Shown: positions 24,854-46,455, counted from the first letter of the stretch. The stretch is 64,000 nucleotides of DNA from an uncultured Flavobacteriaceae bacterium (GCA_905181615.1 CAJIYH010000006.1:1-64000), one strand, 5' to 3'. Notes: a model not told the origin generated them from the sequence alone. A program made the numbers and translations.

Positions 24854-24886
24854 AATACAGGTTTTTCTTTAATGTTTTAAGAGGTG

Positions 24887-24894
24887 CAAATTTA
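24887..24894 (-). promoter_or_regulatory. Bacteroidota -7 promoter element of tuf
   Basis: The minus strand reads TAAATTTG, matching the Bacteroidota TAnnTTTG consensus, 33 bases before the tuf ATG and followed by GCACC. No clear TTTG -33 box was found 19-20 bases upstream; instead there is an A/T-rich tract. Confidence 0.55.
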
Positions 24895-25066
24895 TAAATT
24901 TTTTTATTTAAAAATTACTTTTCTAGACTTTTTTGATTATTTTTTTTATACAAGGTGTTTTGGAACCCTTTTTTTGGCTCAAATATTGAGATTAAAACCA
25001 ATAAAAACTACTAAAAATTAAAGCCTCAAAACCATCAAATGAAACCTCATATTCCCTAAATATAAA

Positions 25067-26380
25067 TTACTTTTTACGGTTCATTTCAAGAACAGCTTCT
25101 TCGATACCTTTGGGTGTGAGTGGATACATCGGTAAAAGTTCTTTTATGATTTGTGTAGAGAGGGTTCCATTCCAGAACTTAATAGGTTCAGGATTTAGCC
25201 AGGCAACTTTCTTAAAATGGTCTTTAATGTCAGCATAGGTATTCAAGCTTGTACGATCTAGTTCGTAAGGTGCCATTGCCGCATCTCCTATAAAAAATAC
25301 ATGATAATTTGGGTCTTTCGATAAAAGACGCTCTATTGGAAGTACTTTTCGACGCTGAGAATCTGAAAATACTTGACGATAAACCGTATTGTGGAAATAA
25401 TAGGTTTCCAGATCATGAGCAAATCGCGTTTTCATTTTTCTAAACAAAGTCTGAACCGCTTTAATGTAGGGATGCATTGAATAACCTCCATTATCAATAA
25501 CTAGAAGGACTTGTAATTTATCAAAGGTTTCGTTTTTGATTTCAGGAATGAATAAACCTCCACGTTCCAATCCTTTTTCAATGGTCTCTTTAACATCCAA
25601 AATTTCTTGAGCCGTTTCTTCTACAATTCCTTTTAAAGAAGCTAAAGCTGCATCTATGTTGTTGTCATTCAAAACGGCATCTAAATCTACTGGAAAGTAA
25701 TTTGAATCTCCTAAAACTTTACGTGCCATTTTGCCACCTCCAGAACCACCAACTCGAATTCCATCTTTAGCAGCACCACCATGACCATATGGTGATATAC
25801 CTCCGGTACCTACCCAATGACTTCCGCCACTATGCTGCGACTGCTGCTGCTTCATTACTTCTTCCATCCGTTGCATCAGCTCTTCTAAACTGAGATCAGA
25901 ATAATCTGCCATTCGATCTAAAGGTCTGTTGGGTGTTTCTTCTTGGTTTTGTTCTTGCTCGTCTGCAAGGTCGCCCTTGTCTTTGTCCCAAAGTTCTTTC
26001 CCGTCTAACACTTCTTTAATGTCATAATGTGTAAGATGAACTTGATCTAAAAATCGATTCACCCATTCTTCAGGGGTTATGTCTTCTTCGATACGGCCAA
26101 AATTAACTTCTTTCCATTGTTCGAAAGTTTGTGACCTCAGAATTGCATCGTTTAATCTTTCGTTAGGTCGGATGTTAATGTCCAAGAAATAAGAATAAAA
26201 AGCCTTAGTATATGGTCCTATATGTTCCGGATCTTTTATGATAAAAGTTCGAAGCACATTATATAAATCGCCTATGGTTTTAACAAGCCCACGATCCATT
26301 GCCTTTTGCAATAATAAAAGAGCACGGACATCTACAGATAAATCAAATTTCTTAAACGCTTCTGGGAGTTTTGTAAACAT
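25067..26380 (-). CDS. VWA-domain protein partnered with MoxR ATPase
   Basis: 437 residues. The C-terminal half (about residues 260-430) is a von Willebrand A-like domain of the type paired with MoxR ATPases; the metal-binding site reads VIDNGGYSMHPY, the D-x-G-G-x-S variant of this subfamily and not the classic DxSxS. The N-terminal half is helical and charged, with a Gln/Glu-rich linker and a Gly-rich patch (GGAAKDGIRVGGSGGG). It follows the MoxR gene by 4 bases. Such pairs are thought to act as chaperones that activate or insert metal cofactors into client enzymes; the client here is unknown. Confidence 0.87.
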   Translation of the reverse strand: MFTKLPEAFKKFDLSVDVRALLLLQKAMDRGLVKTIGDLYNVLRTFIIKDPEHIGPYTKAFYSYFLDINIRPNERLNDAILRSQTFEQWKEVNFGRIEEDITPEEWVNRFLDQVHLTHYDIKEVLDGKELWDKDKGDLADEQEQNQEETPNRPLDRMADYSDLSLEELMQRMEEVMKQQQSQHSGGSHWVGTGGISPYGHGGAAKDGIRVGGSGGGKMARKVLGDSNYFPVDLDAVLNDNNIDAALASLKGIVEETAQEILDVKETIEKGLERGGLFIPEIKNETFDKLQVLLVIDNGGYSMHPYIKAVQTLFRKMKTRFAHDLETYYFHNTVYRQVFSDSQRRKVLPIERLLSKDPNYHVFFIGDAAMAPYELDRTSLNTYADIKDHFKKVAWLNPEPIKFWNGTLSTQIIKELLPMYPLTPKGIEEAVLEMNRKK

Positions 26381-26384
26381 ACAA

Positions 26385-27293
26385 CTAGTTTAAAGTTCCA
26401 AAGCTCTGCTCAGATGCATTCCCAAATTGACGCTGAACACGTTCTAAATCTGCTTGGGTTTTAATTAAGGTTCCTAGACCGTCTAAGGCGTTGATTTTAG
26501 ACAAAGCTTCTTGAGTCGAAAACGTCTTTACATAACGCAACCAATTGAGTAATTCTCTGGTTGTTGGAGCGCGCTCCAGACCAATCCTTCTTAATTGGTA
26601 AAATATATCTAAACAGGACTCTACAATTTTATTAGAAACTTTAGGGTGGTGTTTACTAACAATCAATCGCATTTTTTCGGCATCTGGGAATTGAATGTAA
26701 TGGTAAATACATCTTCCCTTAAAGGCGGTTGGTAATTCTTGCTCCCTATTTGATGTTATTACAATAGTAGGCATGTCTTTTTCTGTAGTTTCGATTACTT
26801 TTCCAGATTCTGGTAAAATAAACTTACGGTGGCTTAAGGCATAAAGTAAGTCGTTTGGAAATTCTCGGGGGGCCTTGTCAATTTCATCTATTAGCAAAAC
26901 CGAATTGGGCTGACTAAATGCTTTAGTTGCAGGTCCCATTACAACATAATCTGATAAATTCTCTGTATCTCTTCCGCCTGAAGAAAGCTTGGTGTCTAAC
27001 CCTTTCTCATTTCGTTGAGCATTGAGAATTTCAATCTGTGAATCTCTTAAATACTTAACGTGATCAAACTTGGCAACAAACTGCTCCACATTACTTTTAG
27101 ATCCAGCTGGGTAAACAAACATTTCTGTTTGCTGACTTGCTGCATATTGAAGTGGTAACTCTGTTTTTCCAGTTCCGGGTTCCCCTTCTATAAGTAAAGG
27201 CATTCCTAAGGTTCGTGCTATATGAAATGCTTGAGCTAATTCTTTATCACATAAATAGTGATCTGATCCATCCCAAAATGTAGTGTCTGCCAT
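26385..27293 (-). CDS. MoxR-family AAA+ ATPase
   Basis: 302-residue AAA+ ATPase. Walker A is GEPGTGKTEL (about residue 37), Walker B is LLIDEIDKAP, and the sensor-1 asparagine is in TIVITSNRE, followed by an arginine-finger region FKGRCIYHYIQFP. The small helical lid with PTTRELLNWLRYV follows. Soluble. Together with the downstream VWA protein it forms a typical MoxR/VWA chaperone pair, with only 4 bases between. Nothing nearby is an obvious metalloenzyme client. Confidence 0.93.
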   Translation of the reverse strand: MADTTFWDGSDHYLCDKELAQAFHIARTLGMPLLIEGEPGTGKTELPLQYAASQQTEMFVYPAGSKSNVEQFVAKFDHVKYLRDSQIEILNAQRNEKGLDTKLSSGGRDTENLSDYVVMGPATKAFSQPNSVLLIDEIDKAPREFPNDLLYALSHRKFILPESGKVIETTEKDMPTIVITSNREQELPTAFKGRCIYHYIQFPDAEKMRLIVSKHHPKVSNKIVESCLDIFYQLRRIGLERAPTTRELLNWLRYVKTFSTQEALSKINALDGLGTLIKTQADLERVQRQFGNASEQSFGTLN

Positions 27294-27305
27294 AAACTAT
27301 AATTA

Positions 27306-27971
27306 TTATTTTTCTTCAATATACTGTTTAAATATCTTTTTCAACTGCTTTTTATCTACTCGGTGATCTCCAGGGTAAGCCTCGATATTGAAATCTAAAT
27401 TACCTCGCTCACAAATTTCTTTAATTTCATTTATTCTTTTTTCATTCAAGAACTGGTCTTGTTCTCCGTAGGTGAAAATTTTACAAATCTGACCCCAATT
27501 CGTTTTTGCAATTTCGTAGTCAATATCCTCTGGAATCCATGAGGCATATGGAATTAAAAAATCAACGCTAACTTCAATGTGATGAAGCCAACGCATGGCT
27601 GTTATTCCTCCTTGAGAAAAACCCATAATTATAGTCTTACATGTCGCCGGAATTTTTTGAACATGCAAATCAAATAAGGTCGAACAATAGACCGAAAAAT
27701 CATGAATCTCTTCTAAGCGATCACGCTTGGTCATCCAAGAAGAAACAACGTCACCTCCAAATCCGTTTAAATAAAATCGAGATAAGCCTTCTGGCGCGAC
27801 TACAAAATGAGTTTCCGGGTCAAACTCTTTGAATTTATAAAGCATTTGCTCCGCTAACATATTAGATCCGTGGAGCACAAACCAAAAATATTTAGTCTTC
27901 GTACTCATTTTTCCATAAGTTGAGTAGCGGGCTGTTTTGGGTGTTATTAGATGATGTGTATTGAGTTTCAT
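27306..27971 (-). CDS. Alpha/beta-hydrolase of the carboxylesterase/phospholipase type
   Basis: 221-residue single-domain alpha/beta hydrolase without a signal peptide. The nucleophile elbow is GFSQGG at about residue 117; the acid is probably the Asp in YGEQDQFL and the histidine the one in PGDHRVD near the C terminus, completing a catalytic triad in the usual order. Closest in form to the small carboxylesterase/lysophospholipase (YpfH-like) group. Substrate unknown. It lies 12 bases after the MoxR start region in the same direction as its neighbours, so it may be transcribed with the LTA-synthase-like gene upstream. Confidence 0.85.
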   Translation of the reverse strand: MKLNTHHLITPKTARYSTYGKMSTKTKYFWFVLHGSNMLAEQMLYKFKEFDPETHFVVAPEGLSRFYLNGFGGDVVSSWMTKRDRLEEIHDFSVYCSTLFDLHVQKIPATCKTIIMGFSQGGITAMRWLHHIEVSVDFLIPYASWIPEDIDYEIAKTNWGQICKIFTYGEQDQFLNEKRINEIKEICERGNLDFNIEAYPGDHRVDKKQLKKIFKQYIEEK

Positions 27972-27978
27972 TTATGTT

Positions 27979-29844
27979 TTACTTTTCAAGAAAATCTTGA
28001 TATGTGGTTTGTAAAATAGCTTTACCAAGTCTTATTAAAGATTCTTCTTCTTTTCCTTCCGACTGAACAACATCTTGACTTATAAAATCATAAACCATAA
28101 AACCTGAATTGTTTATGGTTCCAAATCCTTCGTTAAAAACATAATGAGCAAAGCGATTTTTATTGGAATTAAAAAGGTGGGTTCCAAATTCAAAGGAACT
28201 GTTATCTGCATCTAGTAAGTCTAAAAGCGTGAATGCAAGGTCGACCTGCGAGCCTAAATTTGGATTGATTGTTCCCGGAGTTTCGAGGGCCCCTCCTAAC
28301 CAAAGCATAGGAATTTTAAACCTGCTGGGAGTATTAAAGTTTTGACCCGGAGTTTTTGGTAAGGGATGTCCATGGTCTGCCGAAATGATAACCAATGTGT
28401 TTTTCCACCAGGGCTGATTTTTTGCAAATGCAATAAAATCTCCAACCGCTTTGTCGGTATAAGCCATGGAGCTTTTAAATTTATTCAATTCTGTGTTTTT
28501 ACCAAACTTATACTCACCAGGAAATTCATAGGGCTCATGACTCGTTAGAGTTAGGATGGTCTTAAAGAAAGGCTCTTGTTCTTGTTTATTAAAATCTGTA
28601 GTTACCCGATCAAAAAGCACATGATCATGAACCCCCCATTTGGAATTCCAATCTTTACTTTCAAATATCTCCGAGCCATAAATTTGATCAATTCCTTTTC
28701 CGGTGAGGTAAGTATTCATATTTCCAAAATTCAAATCTCCTCCGTAATAAAAGAAGTTTTGATAGCCACTTGTTTTCATTTCCTGAAACAACAATGGAAG
28801 CTTTTTAGACTTTACAGGTATTTTAATAATACTTTGTTTGGGCTGAGGATAATAACCGCTCAACAAGGCCACTAAGCCTTTGTCTGTTCGGTCTCCGTTT
28901 GCATAGAAATTGGTAAACAGAATTCCTTCGTCTGATAGCTGATTTATGTTTGGTGTTATGGTTTTATCTCCTCCTAAGGGGCCAACAACTTTAGATGTTA
29001 GTCCTTCCCAAATAATAAATATCACATTCGGTTTTTTTACTTTTAAAATATTAATGAGAATAGAATCCTTCGCAAGCAAAGGTTTTTTTGAAGATTCATA
29101 AATTGCTTCAGCCTCAAGCTGTTTATAGGTTAAAAAGGGATGTTCGTAAGGATCTACAAGTTTTGTGTAGGCATGCATAAAGTTCCAAGCATAATTTATT
29201 GCCGCGTGATTAGCAAACATCTTTTTAGAAAAATACACATTACTCTGGTTAATCGGTATGGTTTGAAAACCTCCGCGCATCGGAAGAATTAAAAGTCCCA
29301 AAATAACAATTAGTATTGGAGCACCATAATACGACAGCTTTTCTGACTCATTATAGTTCTTGTAAAAGAAAAAATTAAATATGCGAAATAACGCAAAGGT
29401 TGAGGCAACAAGTAGTCCTAAAAATAAAATAATTTCAGCTGTTGTAGCAGAAGCAAACATAAGCTCTGGTGTATTGAGGTATCGAATAAAGGTAGTATCT
29501 AGGCGTGTATTCCAGTATGAATACAAAAACAAGTCAGCTAAAAACAGACCATTTAACACTAAAATAATTCCAAAAGAATATGCTTTATGAAGTATGCGTA
29601 TTAGTTTTCCATAAATGAAAACTCTCAAAAAAGATAAAATAAATGGGATTACTACAATATAAGCAGCTATAGATAAATCAAGTCTTAGACCGAAAGCAAT
29701 TAGAGATAATGTCTCGTTTGCTTCTAATAATTTTGTTGAATCAAAATAATATATCAAGAATAAAAAGCGAGCAATAATAAAATACATTACCCAGACGCCG
29801 TAGTACTTTAAATTGAAAAGAATTAAACGGTATATAGCTTGCAT
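27979..29844 (-). CDS. LTA-synthase-family membrane phosphatase/sulfatase-fold protein
   Basis: 621 residues from the ATG at 29844 (the track's TTG start adds 23 unlikely residues). Five transmembrane helices occupy about residues 1-220; the rest is an exported alkaline-phosphatase-superfamily domain. IFIIWEGLTSKVVG provides the metal-binding glutamate, ANGDRTDKGL the catalytic threonine, and SADHGHPLP the distal metal ligands. The family includes lipoteichoic acid synthase and periplasmic phosphoglycerol or phosphoethanolamine transferases. Gram-negative Bacteroidota lack lipoteichoic acid, so it more likely transfers a phospho-group to a glycan or lipid in the periplasm; the substrate is unknown. 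Confidence 0.9.
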   Translation of the reverse strand: MQAIYRLILFNLKYYGVWVMYFIIARFLFLIYYFDSTKLLEANETLSLIAFGLRLDLSIAAYIVVIPFILSFLRVFIYGKLIRILHKAYSFGIILVLNGLFLADLFLYSYWNTRLDTTFIRYLNTPELMFASATTAEIILFLGLLVASTFALFRIFNFFFYKNYNESEKLSYYGAPILIVILGLLILPMRGGFQTIPINQSNVYFSKKMFANHAAINYAWNFMHAYTKLVDPYEHPFLTYKQLEAEAIYESSKKPLLAKDSILINILKVKKPNVIFIIWEGLTSKVVGPLGGDKTITPNINQLSDEGILFTNFYANGDRTDKGLVALLSGYYPQPKQSIIKIPVKSKKLPLLFQEMKTSGYQNFFYYGGDLNFGNMNTYLTGKGIDQIYGSEIFESKDWNSKWGVHDHVLFDRVTTDFNKQEQEPFFKTILTLTSHEPYEFPGEYKFGKNTELNKFKSSMAYTDKAVGDFIAFAKNQPWWKNTLVIISADHGHPLPKTPGQNFNTPSRFKIPMLWLGGALETPGTINPNLGSQVDLAFTLLDLLDADNSSFEFGTHLFNSNKNRFAHYVFNEGFGTINNSGFMVYDFISQDVVQSEGKEEESLIRLGKAILQTTYQDFLEK

Positions 29845-30027
29845 ATAGTAAAAGTATGGATTAATATGCTCAAAAAGAACAGAAACAAAAGTCAATAAAA
29901 AATAGTAATTCAAGAAATTATAGCAGCATAGCTTTTGAAAATATTTACATTAAAAAACTATACTGATCTGTTATTAAAAATTTTATGTGCATTTAAAATG
30001 ATTATTATAAGCTGTAAAGAACAAATC

Positions 30028-30153
30028 ATGAAAAAAATATTTGCCTGGCAATTTAATTTCATTCGAAAAAAAACAGTTCTATGGGCTTATCTTAGTTTTG
30101 TGAAAGGGATTTTGATTACCCTTATAGCTCTTTACTTTCTTGAAACTATTTAA
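30028..30153 (+). CDS. Small single-helix membrane peptide 1 (41 aa)
   Basis: An ATG at 30028 inside the longer track ORF (29935-30153) encodes 41 residues beginning MKKIFAWQFNFIRKK and ending in a hydrophobic helix LSFVKGILITLIALYFLETI. A basic N terminus followed by one membrane helix predicts an inner-membrane microprotein with its N terminus inside. First of three tiny same-strand ORFs. No family recognised. Evidence is only the composition and the clustering. Confidence 0.45.
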   Translation: MKKIFAWQFNFIRKKTVLWAYLSFVKGILITLIALYFLETI

Positions 30154-30189
30154 ACATCAAAAAACTCAAAACAAATAAATGTATTTTTA

Positions 30190-30294
30190 ATGAGAAAAAA
30201 AATAATTTTGCTTCTAGTTGTACTTATCTTACTTTACCTATGGGCAGAATTAGCTGTTGGAGTTTTTTTTCAAGACAGCTGGGGAGGCAGCTAG
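30190..30294 (+). CDS. Small membrane peptide 2 (34 aa, LYLWAELAVGVF motif)
   Basis: Too short for the ORF track: ATG at 30190, stop TAG at 30292-30294. The 34 residues start MRKK, continue with an 18-residue hydrophobic helix, and end with LYLWAELAVGVFFQDSWGGS. The WAELAVG(I/V)F ending resembles short Bacteroidota proteins of unknown function that I recall, but this has not been checked. It lies 36 bases downstream of peptide 1 on the same strand. Confidence 0.5.
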   Translation: MRKKIILLLVVLILLYLWAELAVGVFFQDSWGGS

Positions 30295-30344
30295 TTATTT
30301 AAACTAAATTTAGAAAAGTTTCAACTGAAGGCCAACGAACAACT

Positions 30345-30443
30345 ATGGGTTTAAAGATTTACAAGTACTTTATAATTACAACGGTATTAGTCGTTATCGT
30401 TTTTAAACTTTATAATGACCTAAGTGTATGGCTTTTTTTTTGA
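30345..30443 (+). CDS. Small membrane peptide 3 (32 aa)
   Basis: ATG at 30345, TGA at 30441-30443. The 32 residues (MGLKIYKYFIITTVLVVIV...) consist of a short basic start, one hydrophobic helix and an aromatic end WLFF. It follows peptide 2 by 50 bases. It could be chance, since AT-rich DNA readily encodes hydrophobic stretches, but three in a row with proper basic-then-hydrophobic order is suggestive. Confidence 0.35.
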   Translation: MGLKIYKYFIITTVLVVIVFKLYNDLSVWLFF

Positions 30444-30457
30444 ATAGCAAATCACTC

Positions 30458-31093
30458 CTACCCTTCTTGATGTTTTCTGTGAAAATATAGTGCCACTAAG
30501 TATATTATTGGAGTCATAATAATCCAACTGGATTGTGCCTGTATAGTAATTGGACTGCCTGATATTTTAAATAGGGTTGGATTTATCCATGATCCTAGGG
30601 GATGCATCGGAGCCCAAGAAAGATCTCCATTACTACCCAGCTGAAATTTATAAAAGAAACCTTCGACATAAATATTTTGAGCAATAAACCAAAATAATAA
30701 AATTAAAAAAGCACTCCAATTCCATTTCAAAAACGGTGAAGGTTTTTTTTTGTAAAGCAACTTCACAAACGCTATTCCAATCCAGACAATAAGAACATCT
30801 GCTAATGAATTCAAAATCCAGTTTAAATTAAAAGGAATGGCACAACTAAGAGCTACACTTCTTCTCTCGTTCACTGGAAGTCCTCCAGCCAAACCATATG
30901 TTAACCAAAGCTCCCACCCAATTGCGGCTATTATAAAAGCGGCAACTAACGTTGATGCAAGTCTAATAGTCATTTTCTTTTTAAAGAGAAGATAAATTGA
31001 TAAAAAAACGGGAATCAAGGCAGCTGTATAAAGACGAATTACCAGCCAATATTCAAAATCTGACAAGGCACAACTTTTTAAACCATCAAGCAT
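30458..31093 (-). CDS. Polytopic membrane protein of unknown function
   Basis: 211 residues with about six predicted transmembrane helices. Notable segments are IGWELWLTYGLAGG at about residues 58-71 and a loop with PMHPLGSWINPT between the last helices. No recognised catalytic or transporter motif. ATG start at 31093. It runs leftward with the small secreted protein upstream (34 bases away), with which it may form an operon. I do not recognise the family. Confidence 0.65.
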   Translation of the reverse strand: MLDGLKSCALSDFEYWLVIRLYTAALIPVFLSIYLLFKKKMTIRLASTLVAAFIIAAIGWELWLTYGLAGGLPVNERRSVALSCAIPFNLNWILNSLADVLIVWIGIAFVKLLYKKKPSPFLKWNWSAFLILLFWFIAQNIYVEGFFYKFQLGSNGDLSWAPMHPLGSWINPTLFKISGSPITIQAQSSWIIMTPIIYLVALYFHRKHQEG

Positions 31094-31127
31094 AAAAATT
31101 GTTTTGATTTGTTATTAGGTAAAACAA

Positions 31128-31472
31128 CTATTCTTTTTTATTAATTCGATAAAGGGCTTTAGTTTTTACACCATCAAAATGGTTTACTTTATTTTTCTTT
31201 AAAATTTCAAAGTATTGAGTCTCCCTGGCGGTACCGACAATTCTCCAAAATATTTTTTTATTTATATCATCGTACTTTAAGATTTCAACTCCTGCAATAT
31301 ACCCTCCATCTGGAATTGCAAACATTAAAAGTCCATCTTGAGAAATCAAATCAAAGCATTCCTCATTACCTTTTTGACACCATGTGCCGTTTAGATATTT
31401 ATCTATATCAAACTCCTGTGAAAAGCAATAACTTGTAATAATCAATAATAAAATAGTTAGTATGTTTTTCAT
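31128..31472 (-). CDS. Small secreted protein of unknown function
   Basis: 114 residues with a clear signal peptide (MKNILTILLLIITSYCFSQ, cleavage expected after SQ). The mature part has two cysteines near its start (GTWCQKGNEECFDL), which could form a disulfide, and is beta-rich with a GKW-like beginning (LNGTWCQ) reminiscent of lipocalin-like small proteins. No family recognised. Probably co-transcribed with the membrane protein downstream. Confidence 0.65.
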   Translation of the reverse strand: MKNILTILLLIITSYCFSQEFDIDKYLNGTWCQKGNEECFDLISQDGLLMFAIPDGGYIAGVEILKYDDINKKIFWRIVGTARETQYFEILKKNKVNHFDGVKTKALYRINKKE

Positions 31473-31580
31473 ATTATGTAAAATTTAAAAAAATTTACAT
31501 AAATATAAATAAATAAGTTGTATTTGATAATTAAAAAAACCTCAAATAAAAAACTAAAATTTTAATGTATCTTGAATGCT

Positions 31581-31835
31581 ATGAAAAAAATAAACCAATA
31601 CATGCCAATCAAAATCGTATTAATTATAAGCATAAGTTGTCTTTTGTTTTCTTGTTCTTCACAAGATAATTCGACTCCTTCCGAAAAATGTATAGACGCA
31701 TCTCAAATCGATGATTCGGCAATTTGTTATGAGATTTACAGCCCAGTTTGCGGCTGTGACAACAAAACCTATTCAAACGACTGTAAGGCAAACTCTAAAG
31801 GAGTTTTGAGTTTTACTTCGGGTGCGTGTTCTTAA
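31581..31835 (+). CDS. Kazal-type protease-inhibitor lipoprotein
   Basis: 84 residues from the ATG at 31581 (track starts at a TTG 9 bases earlier). A lipoprotein signal ends in LLFSCSSQDNS. The mature part is one Kazal-like domain with the conserved spacing around SPVCGCDNKTYSNDC and a final GAC. Kazal domains inhibit serine proteases by inserting a loop into the active site; the P1 residue cannot be assigned safely. It lies just upstream of an exported M28 metallopeptidase and a CocE-type hydrolase, but Kazal inhibitors target serine proteases, so a direct pairing is not implied. Confidence 0.85.
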   Translation: MKKINQYMPIKIVLIISISCLLFSCSSQDNSTPSEKCIDASQIDDSAICYEIYSPVCGCDNKTYSNDCKANSKGVLSFTSGACS

Positions 31836-31956
31836 AACAAACATTAAGATTTTTTTGAAATTAAATCTCATAAAGCCTTGTCTAGCAACTGACTATTATG
31901 TCATTGGGCTATTCGATTGATTTGACTATCTTTAAACAAGATAAAAAATATTAATT

Positions 31957-33504: not shown

Positions 33505-33517
33505 AATAGACTCCAAT

Positions 33518-33556
33518 AAAAAAAGTCCTGTAAGGATCTTAAAGGACTTTTTATTT
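33518..33556. terminator. Bidirectional terminator
   Basis: AAAAAAAGTCCT and AGGACTTTTTA form an inverted repeat with A and T runs on the outer sides, so it can act for transcripts from both directions. It lies between the convergent stops of the M28 peptidase (33504) and the CocE-like hydrolase (33569). Confidence 0.85.
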
Positions 33557-33568
33557 TAAATATGTTTC

Positions 33569-35467: not shown

Positions 35468-35714
35468 AATAATAGCTTGTATTGTAGAGCTTTAGCAAAG
35501 AGAACTCTTATTATTACACTAAATATACAAAGTTTAAATTCAAGTCTGATTTTCTGAAACAAAAAATATTTCTAAAAGCTAGCCTCCTCAAACCAAAACT
35601 ACAATAGAACACCCCAAAATGAAGCTTTTTTAGCTAAGTTATTGGCGAAAATATTTAATAACACAAATCAAAAAGGCTTAAAAATCTCTGAACTTAGAGA
35701 AGAGGATATGCTTG

Positions 35715-38700: not shown

Positions 38701-39137
38701 GAAGGTGTTGCAATTAAACGAACTACGTCTCCTGAATTATACTCTTCAGATGTTTTATCCGAACTGATTACTTCTTGTGTTATTGTACCTTCTCCTATCT
38801 TACCTACACTAAGAGTATACTGTGTTCTTATGAAGTTAGCAGTAATTGTCTTATTGCTATTCATTGAAACAGTTAATGGATTGTCTGTGCCAGAAGCATC
38901 TCCAGACCAACTAGTAAATTCATACCCAGCATCAGCAGTAGCTGTTATTGAAACATTAGAGTTTTCGTTGTAAGTTCCACCCGTATTGTTTACAGTCCCT
39001 CCTTCAGAAGCTGTAGCTGTTAAAGTATAGGTTATCGTTGGTGTTGGTGCATCTGGAAGAGGACTATCCTTTGAACAAGAGTTTATAAATAGAAATAAAG
39101 AAAATATAAGTAGAGAGCTTTTAAGAAGAAATTTCAT
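35715..39137 (-). CDS. Mosaic surface lipoprotein: InlB-like, DUF5011, BspA repeats, cupredoxin (copy A)
   Basis: 1140 residues from the ATG at 39137 (the track's upstream start adds 16 residues). Lipobox LFLFINSC followed by SKDSP. In order: two InlB-B-type repeats (GYEFTSWSGDASGTDNP and a second copy), a lipocalin-like unit, two DUF5011-like Ig repeats (GDTFTDAGATAEDSIDGDIT), two further Ig-like units, the cap module GTCQCPNATVGD, 11 BspA/DUF285 25-residue repeats (MFYNATSFNQDIGSWNTSNV), and a C-terminal cupredoxin with ligands His (ASHPFY) and C-x2-H-x2-M (YQCSAHNGMYG), the amicyanin-like spacing. Probably surface-exposed and adhesive, with a possible type-1 copper site. No type IX secretion tail. 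Near-identical in large parts to copy B at 42180. Confidence 0.85.
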   Translation of the reverse strand: MKFLLKSSLLIFSLFLFINSCSKDSPLPDAPTPTITYTLTATASEGGTVNNTGGTYNENSNVSITATADAGYEFTSWSGDASGTDNPLTVSMNSNKTITANFIRTQYTLSVGKIGEGTITQEVISSDKTSEEYNSGDVVRLIATPSGGSIFNSWSGSSTETTNQIDVTIDGTKSVTATFEETISQVLAANDTFLGVGKWKIRKKTGGTDTSKFTDCEVSEIIFRTDGTFTIATGTITVTGQFNVDSNTTITLTQEESPFGAITNLVLTNGYISFSISLNSGCTEDATGDRDDTYDEATDTSLPPVISLVGSSTIYLGVGDTFTDAGATAEDSIDGDITSSITSSGTVDTATEGTYLITYTVSDAAGNSVSITRTVIVSLDLPPTITLTGSSTITLLVGDTFTDPGATATDDLDGDLTSSIITTGTVDTSTVGTYTLTYSVSDSASNIVSTTRTVIVNEVCTSATIELIYEQNNTVGNGSNNQTITLGNSIAAINYQLTTDCPPDANGNALNSSANGLPEGVKYSFSSQNNTIIISGTPSTQGTFDYYLEYYNNQTLQSSTVSAVVFGQIIVQESTTSTSTTNTSSCTITSSLINGQASQTVTAGEAIANIGYDITTDCQSLSANAYNLPPGVSMTFSNNIVNISGTTTASGTYNYDVTVAESSTTNSITLSGTITVNASTNTSTGSISFINGTCQCPNATVGDIDVINGVTYTAVDNSTIAGKIANGNVNLCTTLVTDMSELFKDNSSFNTDISFWDISKVTGMTDMFNGASSFNQDISSWDLSSMISLNYMFFNATSFNKDISNWDVSNVTYIHNLFNGATAFNQDIGSWDTSNVLGMAGVFANGNFNRDISNWNTSSVNNMESMFQNAIAFNQDIGSWNTSNVTDMSGMFYNATSFNQDIGSWNTSNVTNMSSMFVSTNSSPNIGGWDVSNVTDMGGMFYNANYFDENIGGWDTSSVTNMESLFRDAGVFNQNIGGWDTSSVTNMDRMFRGAPLFNQNLKDWCVINISSEPELFTNEASALTNTNKPIWGTCPNYNINVTASSNSDYTLAGSDRNGAVSGNDPSITINVGDEVNFIVNAASHPFYIKTVQGTGTDNQVSNVTNNGATSGVVNWTPTAAGTYYYQCSAHNGMYGTITVQ

Positions 39138-39321
39138 AAACAAAGTATATAACTCAAATATATGTAAAAGCACTTCGACAAACAAATGTACTTCAAAGCA
39201 TGAGGGAAAAATGCAGTAATAGAAAAAATTAGTGAATCGATTAAATTTGTAGAATTAGAAATCTAGCATAGTCTTTTAAGCTATTTAAGAGGGTTAGATA
39301 TCCCTGAACTTACTTAACTTG

Positions 39322-39336
39322 ACATGCCTCTGGTTT
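39322..39336 (+). repeat. R1 core fragment
   Basis: ACATGCCTCTGGTTT repeats the 3' end of the R1 repeat (41531-41614), here preceded by CCCTGAACTTACTTAACTTG, a degraded form of the CTGAACTTAAT part. It lies between the copy A lipoprotein and the Gly-tailed protein. Confidence 0.6.
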
Positions 39337-39375
39337 AAAAGAAAACGCTAATAAAGTTCATTTTACGCTATTTTA

Positions 39376-40008
39376 TCACCCTGCATCTCCTCCTCCGCCT
39401 GCATCTCCACCACCTACATCACCTACGCCTGAATCTCCAAAACCTGCATCACTCATAATCATATGACCAGAATCACTTGACGGAATATTATTTATGTTAA
39501 TTTGAAATTCATCTAATATAAAACCTGCTATTAAATCTTTAGCATCTAATCTGTCTGGAAGTTTTGATTCGGTTAGCTTACCATTATCTAAATTAAGAAG
39601 ATAAATTGTCTTTGATGAAAAAAGATAAAATTTACCATTCAATAAAAATGTTTTTGGTGTTGACCATCTAAAAGGTGATTTTAAACTAAACTTTTCAATA
39701 CCACTATTTATATCAATAGCTGTAAATTTATTTGTCCTATTTTTAAAAATCAATATATTCTTAATTATATGTATAGAATAAAATATTTCTTTTAAATCCC
39801 AAGTTTTTTTGCCAGATTTAAAGTCAATTAAGCTTGTGAAATTTGAAGTTCCCCAATTATTTCGGGTTGTTACAAAAACATAGTCATCTATTCTTGATAT
39901 ACCATAAATATGTTTATCAAAATCTACTTTCCAATCAATTGAATTATTTGACCCATTATATTTAGTAATACTTTTTCCTTTAGTGAATAAAACTGAATTA
40001 GATTTCAT
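39376..40008 (-). CDS. PQQ-propeller-like protein with Gly/Asp-rich tail
   Basis: 210 residues, no signal peptide. Repeated strands with alternating hydrophobic residues and motifs such as SIDWKVDFDKHIYG, SLIDFKSGKKTW and TAIDINSGIEKF look like the DxxSG-x-x-x-W/F blades of PQQ-like beta propellers; about four blades, fewer than a full ring. The last 25 residues change abruptly to a low-complexity tail (DSGVGDVGGGDAGGGGDAG) of 12-base DNA repeats. Function unknown; a four-blade fragment may need partners or be a remnant. Low GC and flanking repeats suggest accessory origin. Confidence 0.55.
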   Translation of the reverse strand: MKSNSVLFTKGKSITKYNGSNNSIDWKVDFDKHIYGISRIDDYVFVTTRNNWGTSNFTSLIDFKSGKKTWDLKEIFYSIHIIKNILIFKNRTNKFTAIDINSGIEKFSLKSPFRWSTPKTFLLNGKFYLFSSKTIYLLNLDNGKLTESKLPDRLDAKDLIAGFILDEFQININNIPSSDSGHMIMSDAGFGDSGVGDVGGGDAGGGGDAG

Positions 40009-40057
40009 ATTAATTAATTTATGGTTACTGCTAATATAATAAATCCCTGAACTTAAT

Positions 40058-40110
40058 ACACAAACAGAGGCAAGTCATTGACCTCATCTACTTCGTGTTT
40101 CAACTAAGGC
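40058..40110 (+). repeat. R2 intergenic repeat, copy 1
   Basis: A 53-base segment beginning ACACAAACAGAGGCAAG that recurs at 42124-42176 with 4 mismatches and no gaps (49 of 53 by hand count). It lies between the Gly-tailed protein and the DUF6090-like gene. It is preceded by CTGAACTTAAT, which is also part of R1. No inverted-repeat ends or coding sense seen. Confidence 0.75.
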
Positions 40111-40224
40111 AAAGTTTATTTTAAGGCTATTTGTACAAAACTGTTTTTAAAGCAACTGAAATCAATGAATAGGATGTTTTGAGTAGTAAAAATAAATTAA
40201 GTAAACCTTCGGAAAGGCACAGAT

Positions 40225-40920
40225 TTATTCCTCAAGCTCTTGTTTTATAAGAAGTTGTGCTTGTCTATAGGTTTTTAAAATATCACTTAATTGACGTTTG
40301 TACATATTTGAATAGAGTTTTGCTTGAGATAACATTCCATAAAACTCATTTGAAAAGTAATAATCCTTGTTAAATTTGAACCTTGTTAATTGTCTACTGC
40401 CATAAAATTCTCCCTTCAATAAATTGTAGTCAAACCTTATTCTAAATTTGGTATAAGGCTTTTGTCTAAATCCTATATTAAAATTATCAATCTCTAATGA
40501 TGTTGCATAATTTCGAGCCTTTTGATGGTTATATATCTCAAGTAAATTGTTTTTTAAGTCATTATTTGAAATTAATTCAAAAGAGCCCGTTGCAATCATT
40601 TGATTAAAGATTCCATCTTTAGGGAAAAAAGAAAAACCTACTTCAATTCCAATGAGTGTTTTTATAGATTCCTCATCCTTCAAAATAGAATGTCTTTCGT
40701 CAATATCAGTTTGAATACTCGATATCATTTCTTCTGAAGCATATAAGGTTTTCAGAAGTGATTCTATTTGTAGAATATCATCTTTTATTGTTTTTGACAA
40801 ATCAAGAATGTATCCATTTTTTTTAGCTTTTTCTGATGATATATCATTTAGATTCCCTATATAAAGTGAAAATAAAACACTAGAAAAAATAACAATTCCC
40901 TCAAAAAAGTACTTTTTCAT
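40225..40920 (-). CDS. Membrane-anchored protein resembling DUF6090
   Basis: 231 residues with one N-terminal hydrophobic helix (EGIVIFSSVLFSLYIGN) and a long, mostly helical periplasmic or cytosolic part. The segments FFPKDGIFNQMIATGSFELI and NDLKNNLLEIYNHQKARN resemble the DUF6090 family of flavobacterial proteins of unknown function; this is a recall-level match. It is in the repeat-bounded accessory zone with its own 120-base upstream gap. Confidence 0.6.
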   Translation of the reverse strand: MKKYFFEGIVIFSSVLFSLYIGNLNDISSEKAKKNGYILDLSKTIKDDILQIESLLKTLYASEEMISSIQTDIDERHSILKDEESIKTLIGIEVGFSFFPKDGIFNQMIATGSFELISNNDLKNNLLEIYNHQKARNYATSLEIDNFNIGFRQKPYTKFRIRFDYNLLKGEFYGSRQLTRFKFNKDYYFSNEFYGMLSQAKLYSNMYKRQLSDILKTYRQAQLLIKQELEE

Positions 40921-41042
40921 TTTAATATATTCATAGTTATAATCTTCAATTTATAACTTTTATTAAAAAAAACTTGTTTAAAGTAAGCAATGATTTTATT
41001 TTTTTAAAAAATCTAGTGATAGCTTAAAATTACCTTAACTTA

Positions 41043-41525
41043 CTAAAAGGGTATGCCTCTGGTTTTGTTGCCTAGAAATATTTTCTTTAGTTCAGCTGCT
41101 TTCCTGTCAAAATCTTCTTGGGTTATTATTCCCATTTCGAGGTACTCTTTAAGTTCTTTGATTTTATCTAATGCGTGGTTTTTTGCCATTTCAGCATTAG
41201 GGATTAAATAGATTCTTGTTAACTTAGGAGGTGTGTTATGAGCTGGAGGTTTCCAGAATTCATTTTCAAATTCAATTTCAATACCTTTCCTTTTAATATA
41301 TTCAGCAACCTTCTTTTCAAGTCTCCTCGCAATAGATTTTTTAGTCTTAAAACCATTCAATGAAGTTTCAACAGCATATAATTTACCATCGTGTTCACGA
41401 AGTCCCTCTTCATAAAGCCAACCCAAAGAATTATCTTGCATTTTAATATCCGCATTCAAATTAATTGTTTGTGCAGATAATCCAAAATAAAATTGTAAGA
41501 ACAAGAAAGCAAGTAACTTTTTCAT
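41043..41525 (-). CDS. Secreted protein with C-terminal SHOCT domain
   Basis: 160 residues. A signal peptide (LLAFLFLQFYFGLSAQ) is followed by a central region of unknown fold. Near the C terminus, DKIKELKEYLEMGIITQEDF is a clear SHOCT motif (short helical-hairpin oligomerisation domain, usually at protein ends). The final residues NKTRGIPF are encoded by the R1 repeat core, so the stop codon is supplied by a repeat. Function unknown; the SHOCT domain suggests oligomer formation. Confidence 0.7.
   Translation of the reverse strand: MKKLLAFLFLQFYFGLSAQTINLNADIKMQDNSLGWLYEEGLREHDGKLYAVETSLNGFKTKKSIARRLEKKVAEYIKRKGIEIEFENEFWKPPAHNTPPKLTRIYLIPNAEMAKNHALDKIKELKEYLEMGIITQEDFDRKAAELKKIFLGNKTRGIPF
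41051..41065 (+). repeat. R1 core fragment inside the SHOCT gene 3' end
   Basis: GTATGCCTCTGGTTT matches the R1 end ATATGCCTCTGGTTT in 14 of 15 bases. Read on the minus strand it encodes the last residues of the SHOCT protein, just before its stop. Confidence 0.6.
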
Positions 41526-41530
41526 ATATC

Positions 41531-41614
41531 TAATTTATCAATACAATGTACGAAACTGTTTTCAAAGCTTGTTTTGATTAACTGAACTTAATGAACAGGA
41601 TATGCCTCTGGTTT
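41531..41614 (+). repeat. R1 intergenic repeat, copy 1
   Basis: An 84-base segment from TAATTTATCAATACAATGTA to the end CCTCTGGTTT. It matches 45606-45689 over the full 84 bases without gaps, with about 10 differences by hand count. It lies directly between the divergent SHOCT and DUF1569 genes. A shorter relative with TGTACAAAACTGTTTTTAAAG lies at about 40130-40175. Confidence 0.8.
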
Positions 41615-41656
41615 CAAGTAAATATACTTTTTAATAAAAAATCTTTATATTTAAAA

Positions 41657-42112
41657 ATGGAATTAAATTCTACTAAAATTTATTTAAATAAACTCAATGA
41701 AGATAGTAATCCGAGTTGGGGAATTATGAATTCTAGCCAAATGCTATACCATTGTAATAAATACATAGACGTATCTTTTGGAATTAAAAAAATATATGTC
41801 GTAAACAGAATTTTATTTAGAGTTTTTTTTAGATACTTTTTTTTACAATATTTAAAACATCTAGAATTTGATATTACAAAATTTAAAAAAAATTCAACAA
41901 CATTAAAAATTTTTAAATCATACCCTTTATCAATTGATTTTAATAATGAGAAAGAAATATTAATTCAAAATTTAAACAAAGTTCAAAATATTAATGTTAA
42001 AATAATTCATCATCAACTCTATGGAAATATATCATCTAATTTATTTAAAAAATTAATTGCTTTTCACACTTCATATCATTTTAGTCAATTTGGGATATTA
42101 AGTGATTTATAA
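41657..42112 (+). CDS. DUF1569 / DinB-like protein
   Basis: 151 residues from the ATG at 41657; the track's earlier ATG is inside the R1 repeat. The pattern NPSWGIMNSSQMLYHCNKYI near the N terminus and HTSYHFSQFGIL at the C terminus matches DUF1569, a four-helix DinB-like family, with the histidines of the putative metal site. The gene is unusually AT-rich (long runs of A and T), even for this genome, and most Lys/Asn codons are AAA/AAT, pointing to acquisition or relaxed selection. Function unknown. Confidence 0.72.
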   Translation: MELNSTKIYLNKLNEDSNPSWGIMNSSQMLYHCNKYIDVSFGIKKIYVVNRILFRVFFRYFFLQYLKHLEFDITKFKKNSTTLKIFKSYPLSIDFNNEKEILIQNLNKVQNINVKIIHHQLYGNISSNLFKKLIAFHTSYHFSQFGILSDL

Positions 42113-42123
42113 CCTAATCTATC

Positions 42124-42176
42124 ACACAAACAAAGGCAAGTCTTTGACCTCATCTATTTCGTGTTTCAACTTAGGC
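42124..42176 (+). repeat. R2 intergenic repeat, copy 2
   Basis: 53 bases matching 40058-40110 with 4 differences. It ends four bases before the stop codon of the copy B lipoprotein gene, between it and the DUF1569 gene. Confidence 0.75.
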
Positions 42177-42179
42177 CTA

Positions 42180-45100
42180 TTATTGAACTGTAATTATTCC
42201 ATACATACCGTTATGAACTGAACATTGGTAGTAATACGTTCCTGCAGCTGTAGGTGTCCAATTTACTACTCCGCTTGTAGCTCCATTATTAGTTACATTG
42301 GAAACTTGATTATCTGTACCTGTCCCTTGAACTGTTTTAATATAGAATGGATGACTAGCAGCATTTACAATAAAGTTAACCTCGTCTCCTACATTAATAG
42401 TTATTGAAGGGTCGTTTCCTGATACTGCACCATTTCTGTCAGAACCTGCTAGGGTATAATCAGAATTAGAAGATGCTGTGACGTTTATATTGTAATTAGG
42501 ACAAGTTCCCCAAACAGGTTTGTTGGCATCTGTTAGGGCAGAACTAAACAAAAAGTTTATGGGCTCTGAATTAATGTTAGAAACACACCAACCCGAAATA
42601 TCCTGATTAAATGAGGATGCATTTTCAAACATTCTGTCCATATTAGTTACATTAGAGGTGTCCCAGAAACCAATATCAGAGTTAAAGTTTGCTTTGCCAG
42701 AAAATAAATTTTGCATACTAGTAACCAATGTAGTACAAAGATTAACATTACTATTCGCTATTTGCCCTGCTATAGTTGAATTATCCACTGCGGCATAAGT
42801 TACCCCATTAATTACATCTGTATCTCCTGCCGTTGCATTTGGACATTGACAAGTTCCATTTATAAATGAGATGCTTCCTGAATTATTAGTTGTAGCTGCT
42901 GAATTTACCGTAATTGTTCCTGTAACTACTTGTGATGTTGAAGCCCCTGAAATAGTTACTGTATAGTTAAATGTTCCTGTTGCGTTAGCACTACCTGATA
43001 TAGTGGCTACATTATTACCAAAGGCTAAGGTTACTCCAGATGGAAAGCCTGATGCAGATGCAGATAATGTTCCTGTACAAATAGGTGCTGCCGTATATAC
43101 TATATCTGTAGTTGCGTTAGTAGCTGTTACTGTCTGTGAGTTAGAGCCACTTGTAAGTGCTACTGTAAATTCTTTTCCCCAGAGAGGTTTATTGGCTTCT
43201 ATTAGGGCTGATGACAAGTTAACAAATTCAGTCGGTTCAGATGTAATACTAGATACACACCAACCTGTTAAGTCTTGATTAAATACCTCAGCGGCTTTAA
43301 ATTGTTTAGACATATCTGTAACATTAGAAGTATCCCAATTACCAATATTTTGATTGAATGCAAATGCCGATGCGAACATATTAACCATACTGGATACATT
43401 AGAAGTATCCCAACTACCTATATTCTTATTGAATGCCCAGGCATTCCTAAACATTTCGTTCATATTAGTAACACTAGAAGTATTCCAATTACCAATATTT
43501 TGGTTGAATATATTTGCAGCCCTAAACATAAGAGTCATATCTGTGACATTTAGAGTATCCCAAGAGGAAATATCAGAGTTAAAAGATGTTGCACCATAAA
43601 ACATACTCTGCATATTTGTCACGTTGGAGGTATCCCAAAAACTTATATCTGAATTGAAAGAATCATTTGCTCGAAATAGTTCACTCATATCAGTAACCAA
43701 TGTTGTACACAGATTAACATTCCCATTCGCTATCTGACCTGCTATTGTTGAATTATTTACTGCAGTATAGGTAGTCCCATTAATTACAACTGTATCTCCT
43801 ACTGTTGCGTTAGGGCATTGACACGTTCCGTTTACAAATGAGATATTTCCTGAATTAGAAACAGCAGCACTTACAATAACTGTTCTACGAACTACTGTTG
43901 CAGCATTACCCGCAGCATCCGAAACGTTATACGATATTGTATATGTTCCTGCCGAAGATGTATCAACTGAACCAGATATTAATACTGATGATGTAATATC
44001 ACCATCAATATTATCAGTAGCTATTGCTCCTGGGTCTGTGAAGGTATCCCCTACGGTTAAATTGACGGTAGAAGAACCTGTTAATGTAATTGTTGGTGGT
44101 GTTGTATCTGGGAGTGGGTCAACAATGACTGTTCTTGTTACCGAAACGAAGTTATTCCCACTATCCGAAACAGAATAGACTAAGGTGTACGATCCTGCAT
44201 TAGAAACATCAACTGTTCCTGAAGTTGTTATAGAAGCTGTGATATCTCCATCCTCTTGGTCTGTTGCAACACATCCATCCTCTATGTAAGTGTCTCCCAC
44301 TAGAAGAGTAATAGTTGAAGAACCTGTTAAGGTAATCGTTGGAGGTAAATCTAAACTTACAATTACTGTTCTGGTTATTGAAACAGAGTTACCTGCTGCA
44401 TCAGAGACTGTGTAAGTAATTAAATAAGTTCCCTCGGTTGCTGTATCAACAGTTCCAGAAGATGTAATTGAAGAGGTAATGTCTCCGTCTATACTATCCT
44501 CTGCAGTAGCTCCTGCATCTGTAAAAGTATCTCCTACTCCTAAATAGATTGTAGAAGAACCCACAAGTGATATAACAGGTGGTAAAGAAGTGTCTGTAGC
44601 TTCATCATAAGTGTCATCTCTATCTCCTGTAGCATCCTCTGTACATCCGCTATTTAGACTAATTGAAAAACTAATATATCCATTGGTAAGAACAAGGTTT
44701 GTAATAGCTCCAAAAGGAGATTCCTCTTGGGTTAAGGTAATTGTTGTATTTGAATCTACGTTAAACTGACCTGTAACGGTAATAGTTCCAGTGGCTATTG
44801 TAAATGTACCATCTGTTCTAAATATGATTTCTGACACTTCACAATCTGTAAACTTACTAGTATCAGTTCCACCTGTTCGTTTTCTTATTTTCCACTTTCC
44901 AACTCCTAGAAACTCATTATTATCAGATAGGACTTGACTTATAGTTTCTTCAAATGTTGCAGTAACTGATTTTGTTCCATCAATAGTAACATCAATCTGG
45001 TTTGTTGTTTCAGTTGAAGACCCAGACCAACTATTAAATATAGAACCACCAGAAGGTGTTGCAATTAAACGAACTACGTCTCCTGAATTATATTCTTCAG

Positions 45101-45473
45101 AGGTTTTATCCGAACTGATTACTTCTTGTGTTATTGTACCTTCTCCTATCTTACCTACACTAAGAGTATACTGTGTTCTTATAAAGTTAGCAGTAATTGT
45201 CTTATTGCTATTCATTGAAACAGTTAATGGATTGTCTGTGCCAGAAGCATCTCCAGACCAACTAGTAAATTCATACCCAGCATCAGCAGTAGCTGTTATT
45301 GAAACATTAGAGTTTTCGTTGTAAGTTCCACCCGTATTGTTTACAGTCCCTCCTTCAGAAGCTATAGCTGTTAAAGTATAGGTTATCGTTGGTGTTGGTG
45401 CAGGAAGAGGACTATCCTTTGAACAGGATAAAAGAATAAAAAAAGCAAATAGAGTAGGACTAAAATTTTTCAA
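42180..45473 (-). CDS. Mosaic surface lipoprotein: InlB-like, DUF5011, BspA repeats, cupredoxin (copy B)
   Basis: 1097 residues; lipobox FFILLSC followed by SKDSP. Domain order: two InlB-B-type repeats and lipocalin-like unit nearly identical to copy A, three DUF5011-like Ig units, a cap module with six BspA/DUF285 repeats, an Ig-like unit, a second cap module with two BspA repeats, and a C-terminal cupredoxin with His (ASHPFY) and C-x2-H-x2-M (YQCSVHNGMYG). The first about 370 mature residues and the last about 105 match copy A almost perfectly; the middle and the signal peptide differ. Probably a variable surface adhesin with a putative copper site; the ligand is unknown. Confidence 0.85.
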   Translation of the reverse strand: MKNFSPTLFAFFILLSCSKDSPLPAPTPTITYTLTAIASEGGTVNNTGGTYNENSNVSITATADAGYEFTSWSGDASGTDNPLTVSMNSNKTITANFIRTQYTLSVGKIGEGTITQEVISSDKTSEEYNSGDVVRLIATPSGGSIFNSWSGSSTETTNQIDVTIDGTKSVTATFEETISQVLSDNNEFLGVGKWKIRKRTGGTDTSKFTDCEVSEIIFRTDGTFTIATGTITVTGQFNVDSNTTITLTQEESPFGAITNLVLTNGYISFSISLNSGCTEDATGDRDDTYDEATDTSLPPVISLVGSSTIYLGVGDTFTDAGATAEDSIDGDITSSITSSGTVDTATEGTYLITYTVSDAAGNSVSITRTVIVSLDLPPTITLTGSSTITLLVGDTYIEDGCVATDQEDGDITASITTSGTVDVSNAGSYTLVYSVSDSGNNFVSVTRTVIVDPLPDTTPPTITLTGSSTVNLTVGDTFTDPGAIATDNIDGDITSSVLISGSVDTSSAGTYTISYNVSDAAGNAATVVRRTVIVSAAVSNSGNISFVNGTCQCPNATVGDTVVINGTTYTAVNNSTIAGQIANGNVNLCTTLVTDMSELFRANDSFNSDISFWDTSNVTNMQSMFYGATSFNSDISSWDTLNVTDMTLMFRAANIFNQNIGNWNTSSVTNMNEMFRNAWAFNKNIGSWDTSNVSSMVNMFASAFAFNQNIGNWDTSNVTDMSKQFKAAEVFNQDLTGWCVSSITSEPTEFVNLSSALIEANKPLWGKEFTVALTSGSNSQTVTATNATTDIVYTAAPICTGTLSASASGFPSGVTLAFGNNVATISGSANATGTFNYTVTISGASTSQVVTGTITVNSAATTNNSGSISFINGTCQCPNATAGDTDVINGVTYAAVDNSTIAGQIANSNVNLCTTLVTSMQNLFSGKANFNSDIGFWDTSNVTNMDRMFENASSFNQDISGWCVSNINSEPINFLFSSALTDANKPVWGTCPNYNINVTASSNSDYTLAGSDRNGAVSGNDPSITINVGDEVNFIVNAASHPFYIKTVQGTGTDNQVSNVTNNGATSGVVNWTPTAAGTYYYQCSVHNGMYGIITVQ

Positions 45474-45605
45474 AACATAAAATTTTTGAAATGTAAAGCT
45501 AAAACTTTAAATTAAATAATCATCTACTGCATTATCACTTCAGCATAGGGGCGAAAGTCTTTTCTATTATAAAGCATTATTTATTGAGTAGCTTTTCATA
45601 ATATC

Positions 45606-45689
45606 TTATTTATCAGTACAATGTACAAAACTGTTTTTAGAGCTTGTTTTCATTATCTGAACTTAATAAACAGGATATGCCTTGGGTTT
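45606..45689 (+). repeat. R1 intergenic repeat, copy 2
   Basis: 84-base counterpart of 41531-41614, from TTATTTATCAGTACAATGTA to CCTTGGGTTT. As with copy 1, it lies just upstream of a rightward small gene (45723). Confidence 0.8.
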
Positions 45690-45722
45690 AGTATATTTAA
45701 CTTGAAAATTAAAACCTAAAAA

Positions 45723-45953
45723 ATGAAGAAAATTCTATTACTACTTATTGGACTAACGATTCTGTATAGTTGTGATAAAAGAGATGATTGCTTTACAATA
45801 GGAGAAAAGTTTATTGCGGAAGGACAATATTATTTTCTAGATGATGAATTAGGAAATAACAGATATGAGAACACACGCCCTAGTGGGCAGATTATCATAT
45901 CAGAAGAAGTTTACACTGAGTATTTGGTTGGAGATGAATTTTGTATTAATTAG
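45723..45953 (+). CDS. Small lipoprotein of unknown function
   Basis: 76 residues: lipoprotein signal with lipobox TILYSC followed by DKRDDC, then a short acidic beta-rich part ending GDEFCIN. Three cysteines in the mature form besides the lipidated one are not paired in any known pattern. Similar short lipoproteins occur in flavobacteria; I do not recognise a named family. Its first codons and leader (CTAAAAAATGAAGAAAATT) recur at 46069-46087 as an abortive copy. Confidence 0.6.
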   Translation: MKKILLLLIGLTILYSCDKRDDCFTIGEKFIAEGQYYFLDDELGNNRYENTRPSGQIIISEEVYTEYLVGDEFCIN

Positions 45954-46118
45954 AGCTTACAATTATAGAATTAAGTTAAATGTTAATTTCTTACTAGTCT
46001 GTTTTATTTTAAAATACGATGTAAACAGAATTAAACTTTAAGTTTAGAAATTTAACTATAATTAAAAATCTAAAAAATGAAGAAAATTGAATTAGTAAAC
46101 TTATGGTAAACTTTTAAG

Positions 46119-46154
46119 CAAAAAAAACACCTAAACTGATGTCTAAGTGTTTTT
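46119..46154. terminator. Terminator of the tRNA operon, bidirectional form
   Basis: On the minus strand AAACACTTAGAC and GTTTAGGTGTTT pair over 12 bp (with two G-T pairs) around ATCA and are followed by a run of eight T. The plus strand has TTTTTATATTTT on the other side. It ends the four-tRNA transcript about 38 bases after tRNA-Thr(GGT), so the tRNAs no longer lead into tuf. Confidence 0.85.
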
Positions 46155-46191
46155 ATATTTTGGTAACTTTCTGATTACTAGCATTAAGTTG

Positions 46192-46263
46192 AGCCAGCGA
46201 GCAGATTTGAACTGCCGACCTCTTCCTTACCAAGGAAACGCTCTACCCCTGAGCTACACCGGC
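46192..46263 (-). tRNA. trnT: tRNA-Thr (GGT)
   Basis: 72-base cloverleaf: acceptor GCCGGTG/CGCTGGC, anticodon stem TTTCC/GGAAG with loop TTGGTAA (anticodon GGT), T loop TTCAAAT. CCA not encoded. Last of four tRNAs on the leftward transcript. Confidence 0.95.
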
Positions 46264-46271
46264 AAAAAGAG

Positions 46272-46344: not shown

Positions 46345-46373
46345 TTTTTAAAACCTTATAAAGGTTAGGGTTG

Positions 46374-46455
<82 letters not shown>

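Follow-up and report, generated by a model that had tools for sequence, protein, structure and literature searches.

A clade-wide split between tuf and its tRNA operon, and a repeatedly used insertion site, in marine Flavobacteriaceae

In one clade of Flavobacteriaceae the tuf gene, encoding elongation factor Tu, has been uncoupled from the tRNA operon to which it is joined elsewhere in the family; the uncoupling is old and clade-wide, and the tRNA-tuf junction is a repeatedly used insertion site. The locus was analyzed in a window of 64,000 nucleotides (the whole stretch of DNA studied), which is part of contig C6 of a 2.19 Mb genome in seven contigs (G000). The genus of this genome, Candidatus Arcticimaribacter, is a member of the NS5 marine group (PMC9122927). 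A sequence-only reading of the window, taken in its simplest form, had the operon split by one 21 kb insertion or rearrangement in this genome. The operon is indeed split, but a single insertion of 21 kb does not explain it: the split is common to all resolvable members of the genus and to about ten further genera. Our confidence in a clade-level split accompanied by a tuf promoter is high. In the literature searched we found no paper on a tRNA-tuf split in Bacteroidetes, which is a weak negative.

In E. coli the tRNAs for Thr, Tyr, Gly, and Thr lie directly ahead of tuf in the order thrU-tyrU-glyT-thrT-tufB. In the window the four tRNA genes, tRNA-Thr(TGT) (46524-46598), tRNA-Tyr(GTA) (46373-46455), tRNA-Gly(TCC) (46271-46344), and tRNA-Thr(GGT) (46191-46263), form a minus-strand cluster (46191..46598) that is not contiguous with tuf, the distance from the last tRNA, tRNA-Thr(GGT), to tuf being 21.3 kb. 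ARAGORN, with Rfam in agreement, placed these genes and tRNA-Trp (23523-23596, minus strand) where the sequence-only reading had put them. It had also correctly put tuf (23666..24853, minus strand; PF00009) on the same strand further to the left, followed by tRNA-Trp, nusG, rplKAJ, and rpoB. The conserved upstream border is hpf (46692..46985, minus strand; Pfam S30AE, E=2.7e-15), which encodes a short ribosome hibernation factor and neighbors the tRNA cluster in almost every genome of the family. The putative promoter of the tRNA operon has a -7 box, TACATTTG, at 46637..46644 (minus strand), and a TAnnTT[TC]G box was present within 60 nt upstream of tRNA-Thr(TGT) in 37 of 48 genomes. The tRNAs are followed by an intrinsic terminator of their own (46123..46154, minus strand), a 14-pair stem and then T's, which resembles that of the congener G010 and differs from the AGGCT type that other members of the genus have. 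This terminator had been noted earlier, as had a -7 element belonging to tuf itself, TAAATTTG at 24887..24894 (minus strand), 41 nt upstream of the tuf start; both were found. The description of the block between tRNAs and tuf as holding surface proteins, peptidase, and small unknown genes likewise agrees with the Pfam assignments (two DUF285/Ig-like proteins, an M28 peptidase, and others).

Both hpf and tuf were located in an initial set of 60 relatives and afterward in 251 genomes of the family. In 92 of the 100 family genomes having both coordinates listed, the hpf-tuf distance was 457-1164 bp (median 692); two of the other eight are contig ends and the remainder all come from one group. 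tRNA calls on these loci placed Thr-Tyr-Gly-Thr between hpf and tuf in the contiguous relatives. The tRNA-tuf link is thus the family norm, which bears out the earlier claim that an ancestral link is broken in the window.

All genus members with both ends on one contig are split, with hpf-tuf gaps of 6.3, 6.5, 8.3, 12, 21.8, and 29 kb. About ten further related genera are also split: G163, G061, G195, G200, G091, G202, G248, G102, and G075 either are split or at least have no tRNA in the several kb of available sequence upstream of tuf. tRNA and tuf lie about 11.6 kb apart on one contig of G228, and the short contig upstream of tuf in G022 carries no intact tRNA. The cargo varies between genera, with glycosyltransferases plus aconitase in one set and GH43, a DEAD helicase, and others elsewhere. 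A maximum-likelihood tree of 60 genomes was built from six linked proteins encoded next to tuf (tuf, nusG, rplK, rplA, rplJ, and rpoB). In this tree all split family genomes having the markers fell into one clade (UFBoot 99), with G075 and G228 on long branches. The same node holds G083 and G272, in which the tRNAs still adjoin tuf with no inserted genes and a spacer of 212-215 bp, versus the usual 50-70 bp. These two genomes nest in the clade beside the split G022 and G248 (UFBoot 96). A separate split was found outside the clade in an order-level family, f5 (G040 and G053).

Other departures from the usual arrangement were seen at these loci. In the f5 loci (L075 and L076) five conserved genes occupy the split, tuf likewise has a -7 box of its own, and tRNA Thr-Tyr-Gly is duplicated in tandem. 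Some members of the genus, forming a subclade (L069 of G008, also L095, L096, and L097), have a second insertion, between hpf and tRNA-Thr(TGT), made up of two genes coding for about 305 and 245 aa. Several small-genome clade members lacked an hpf match; in G248 (L125) xerC leads directly into the tRNAs and hpf seems to have been lost. At the end of contig C20 of G258 (L177), a tRNA-Thr(GGT) lies near tuf in reverse orientation, which hints at an inversion or a second copy.

The putative tuf promoter occurs throughout the clade, with and without inserted genes. A TAnnTT[TC]GC box lies 40-42 nt upstream of the tuf start in 25 of 25 clade genomes tested, including the gene-free G083 and G272; G228 also has the box, and hence all 26 clade genomes examined were positive. 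In flavobacteria the sigma-A -7 consensus reads TAnnTTTG (PMC9723704). Outside the clade the box was missing at this place in 55 of 57 genomes, the two positives being the f5 genomes with the independent split. The contiguous relatives instead have a common leader between tRNA and tuf, GAACACTAATATATAACTAAGATTAAA or a sequence near it, with no -7 box. The contrast between the 25 of 25 plus G228 within the clade and the 2 of 57 outside indicates that the presence of a tuf promoter is associated with the loss of contiguity. As judged from this motif, the putative tuf promoter is a clade-wide trait that is present even where no genes have been inserted.

The block in the window is layered. Next to tuf is a genus core (25067..27971, minus strand) encoding an alpha/beta hydrolase, a MoxR-like AAA ATPase, and a 437-aa protein with a VWA-like DNGGYSM motif, and in every genus genome whose assembly covers this end the trio stands beside tuf in the same order. 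Among 150 genera sampled, only Arcticimaribacter yielded the 437-aa protein, and a three-sequence structural model of it (pLDDT 35) was not usable. Adjoining the core is a sulfatase-domain protein gene (27979..29913, minus strand) that occupies the same place in G010 and G008 and is degraded in G018. The remaining 15.8 kb (30318..46119) is specific to this genome, as blastn homology to G010 ends at 46120 and 30317 and G010 has only about 310 bp in its place. The layers are thus genus-wide from 25.0 to 28.0 kb, subclade-wide from 28.0 to 29.9 kb, and genome-specific from 30.3 to 46.1 kb. The sequence-only reading had held that conserved genes between tRNAs and tuf in close relatives would speak against an insertion: such genes exist genus-wide at 25067-27971, whereas about 30318-46119 is genome-specific. 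Upstream of the sulfatase gene, 30190-30294 (plus strand) encodes a 34-aa membrane peptide ending in ...FFQDSWGGS, which has a clear counterpart in G010 and is possibly a conserved microprotein.

The genome-specific segment contains two paralogous DUF285/Ig-like surface protein genes (42180..45473 and 35715..39185, both minus strand; Pfam). Their 300-nt 3' ends (35707-36006 and 42172-42471) are 96% identical and the remainder has diverged, which suggests recent gene conversion or duplication. A foreign origin of these proteins was rejected because the family is genus-wide, occurring in 17 of 19 genomes. Between the paralogue at 35715 and an M28 peptidase gene (31957..33504, plus strand; Pfam) lies a CocE/NonD (S15) hydrolase gene (33569..35467, minus strand; TIGR00976, E=1.3e-107). 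No CocE hydrolase was found in the 18 other genus genomes, several of which are incomplete. Proteins 74% and 71% identical are encoded in two other genera of larger genome size, at loci that are unrelated and have none of the remaining block genes in their vicinity. Given its absence from the 18 congeners and the 71-74% identity in the two other genera, the hydrolase was probably acquired laterally. The earlier expectation that the block is partly foreign and partly not is in keeping with this gene and with the genus-wide genes proximal to tuf. Several further block genes are small and have no assigned function. GC content was discarded as a sign of foreign origin, the values (0.335 for the variable segment versus 0.361) being too close to inform.

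Traces of how genes entered this site are visible in relatives. In G013 a 51 nt copy of tRNA-Thr(GGT) (96% identity) lies 22.5 kb from the intact tRNA. G008 has a displaced copy between the tRNA and tuf that, like that of G013, starts at nt 27 or 23 and extends through the 3' end (the two copies are 47-51 nt, with 98% identity in G008). Eroded or partial copies were found in G061 and G022. The scar in G013 is followed by a terminator and small genes that directly follow the tRNA in G003. G003 represents the empty site: 776 bp across its tRNA and flank match the far, displaced end of the island in G013, and only 76 bp match the tRNA end of that island. The start of each of the five scars coincides with or adjoins CTTGGTAAGG, the anticodon loop, which is one known crossover point of tRNA islands (PMC4383910). 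When the 251 family genomes were searched for further copies of the 3' half of this tRNA, only G000, G013, and G102 had one, all being members of the clade (3 of 16 clade genomes versus 0 of 235 others; Fisher p=2e-4). These alignments show tRNA-targeted integration in G013 and support it in G008, G061, and G022, a reading in which we have good confidence. Catabolic genes are carried on the G013 island, which also encodes, at a distance of 150 bp from the scar, a 539-aa candidate recombinase having R...HNTRH...Y, the motif order expected of tyrosine recombinases. This protein gave no significant match in Pfam, NCBIfam, PHROGs, or PDB sequences, nor in 250 family genomes, viral contigs, or local recombinase profiles.

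In the window genome the scar lies elsewhere. No 3' copy of tRNA-Thr(GGT) was found within 24854-46190 by blastn-short, ungapped scan, or exact words, and the best ungapped match in the block was within the range given by shuffles. The block also has no integrase: both PF00589 matches of the genome lie outside it, and one of these is the conserved xerC-like gene beside hpf. However, contig C4 of the same genome (L223) carries at 124703-124750 a displaced tRNA-Thr(GGT) 3' half identical to the window tRNA. Like the G008 scar (81% identity over 140 bp), it is followed by a tRNA-type terminator. The C4 scar adjoins DUF285 fragments and leader repeats of about 100 bp that are common to the window block; the repeats are found at 41512-41614 and 45587-45689 of the window and at 118.3, 118.9, 120.0, 120.5, and 123.5 kb of C4. 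Each repeat covers the leader of a small gene together with its start-codon region, the genes themselves being unrelated, and occurs almost only in G000 among the loci compared. The repeat is possibly a shared promoter that aids recombination. Integron-like cassette ends were rejected as an explanation of the repeats, since these are gene leaders with start codons, and informal inspection saw no attC-like feature.

The explanation that we consider probable is that an ancestral gain of a promoter by tuf was followed by repeated use of the tRNA-tuf junction as an insertion site, with cargo differing from genus to genus. The ancestor of this clade of small-genome marine Flavobacteriaceae would have gained a tuf promoter just upstream of the start codon. 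On the evidence of the motif, tuf would then no longer have needed the tRNA promoter, and DNA between the last tRNA and tuf could have been tolerated from that time on. Integrative elements would have used the anticodon loop of tRNA-Thr(GGT) as their crossover point and restored the tRNA, each integration displacing the tRNA terminator and everything behind it toward tuf. Deletion, decay, and rearrangement may then have left a different gene set in each genus. In the window this would have produced the old genus core (25.0-28.0 kb) and the subclade gene (to 29.9 kb) beside tuf, and the genome-specific segment of 30.3-46.1 kb beside the tRNAs. The 15.8 kb segment may have entered via the tRNA and later parted from the scar now on C4. 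Points that speak against this explanation are the lack of scar and integrase in the window block, the G013 candidate recombinase matching its presumed family in motif order only, and a tree drawn from proteins encoded beside tuf with two clade members on long branches. A stronger formulation, in which promoter gain by an essential gene turned the operon interior into a lasting site of gene exchange and tRNA-Thr(GGT) islands came only after tuf had been freed, is more tentative, and we place it a little short of an even chance.

The single 21 kb insertion of the sequence-only reading is very improbable. It would agree with the restriction of 30.3-46.1 kb to this genome and with the lack of a CocE hydrolase in the rest of the genus, but the split is genus-wide and clade-wide, so that relatives with split loci refute it, and the 25.0-28.0 kb core is conserved in the genus. 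The order of promoter and insertion is less settled. Promoter first and insertion later would be the simpler reading. Since G083 and G272 nest beside the split G022 and G248, they may have lost an insert, and so promoter-first is not the sole possible order. An early insertion could have parted tuf from the tRNAs, the promoter then having been fixed by selection and the gene-free state of these two genomes being due to later deletion of the insert; their nesting and their long spacer speak for this order. We regard this order as unlikely, as no cargo gene common to the whole clade was found and a promoterless insertion would cut off an essential gene.

Two other readings concern the window itself. 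The 15.8 kb segment might be old in the Arcticimaribacter subclade and have been lost from G010 and G018 rather than gained in G000, and the decayed DUF285 fragments at the same place in G008, together with the genus-wide distribution of DUF285 genes, fit such a history. The CocE hydrolase, absent from all 18 congeners yet 71-74% identical in two larger-genome genera, weighs against it, and we think it possible although rather doubtful. Alternatively, homologous exchange among dispersed repeats (DUF285 genes and the leader repeats) could have supplied the block content with no involvement of the tRNA in this genome; the recurrence of the window leader repeats beside DUF285 fragments at 118-124 kb of C4 speaks for it. 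We hold this to be unlikely, because the same stretch of C4 ends in the tRNA-Thr(GGT) scar and its tRNA-type terminator, indicating that a tRNA-targeted event did occur in this lineage. A tRNA-targeted element is likely to have entered the window site, with repeat recombination later moving its far end to C4, and we attach moderate confidence to a role for tRNA-targeted integration in the window block. Note that the placement of the C4 scar could be an assembly misjoin.

The locus offers a checkable case of a widespread operon coming apart, with a clade-wide promoter seen both with and without inserted genes and with insertion ends that can be located to single-base precision. Operon decay, tRNA-targeted islands, and niche genes (surface proteins and catabolic genes) are connected here in an abundant marine group. 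If the proposed explanation is true, each genus of this marine clade carries its own cargo inside a formerly conserved translation operon.

The arrangement can be compared with three known systems. Most Flavobacteriaceae tested have the arrangement of the E. coli and Salmonella thrU-tyrU-glyT-thrT-tufB operon, whereas in this clade tuf is parted from the tRNAs and has its own -7 box and, in the window, the tRNAs have their own terminator. The islands of G013 and G008 resemble tRNA-targeted islands of the Islander type (PMC4383910) in having the intact tRNA at one end and a displaced 3' fragment of the same orientation at the other, and in the crossover at the anticodon loop. The window block differs from such islands in lacking a displaced fragment (one being on C4) and a recognizable integrase, and the target tRNA belongs to a translation operon, where it immediately precedes tuf. 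Like chromosomal integration hotspots, the site has fixed borders (xerC-hpf-tRNAs and tuf-tRNA-Trp-nusG) and variable content. Unlike them, it seems to owe its opening to an essential gene having gained a promoter within one clade, and it is closed in nearly all other members of the family.
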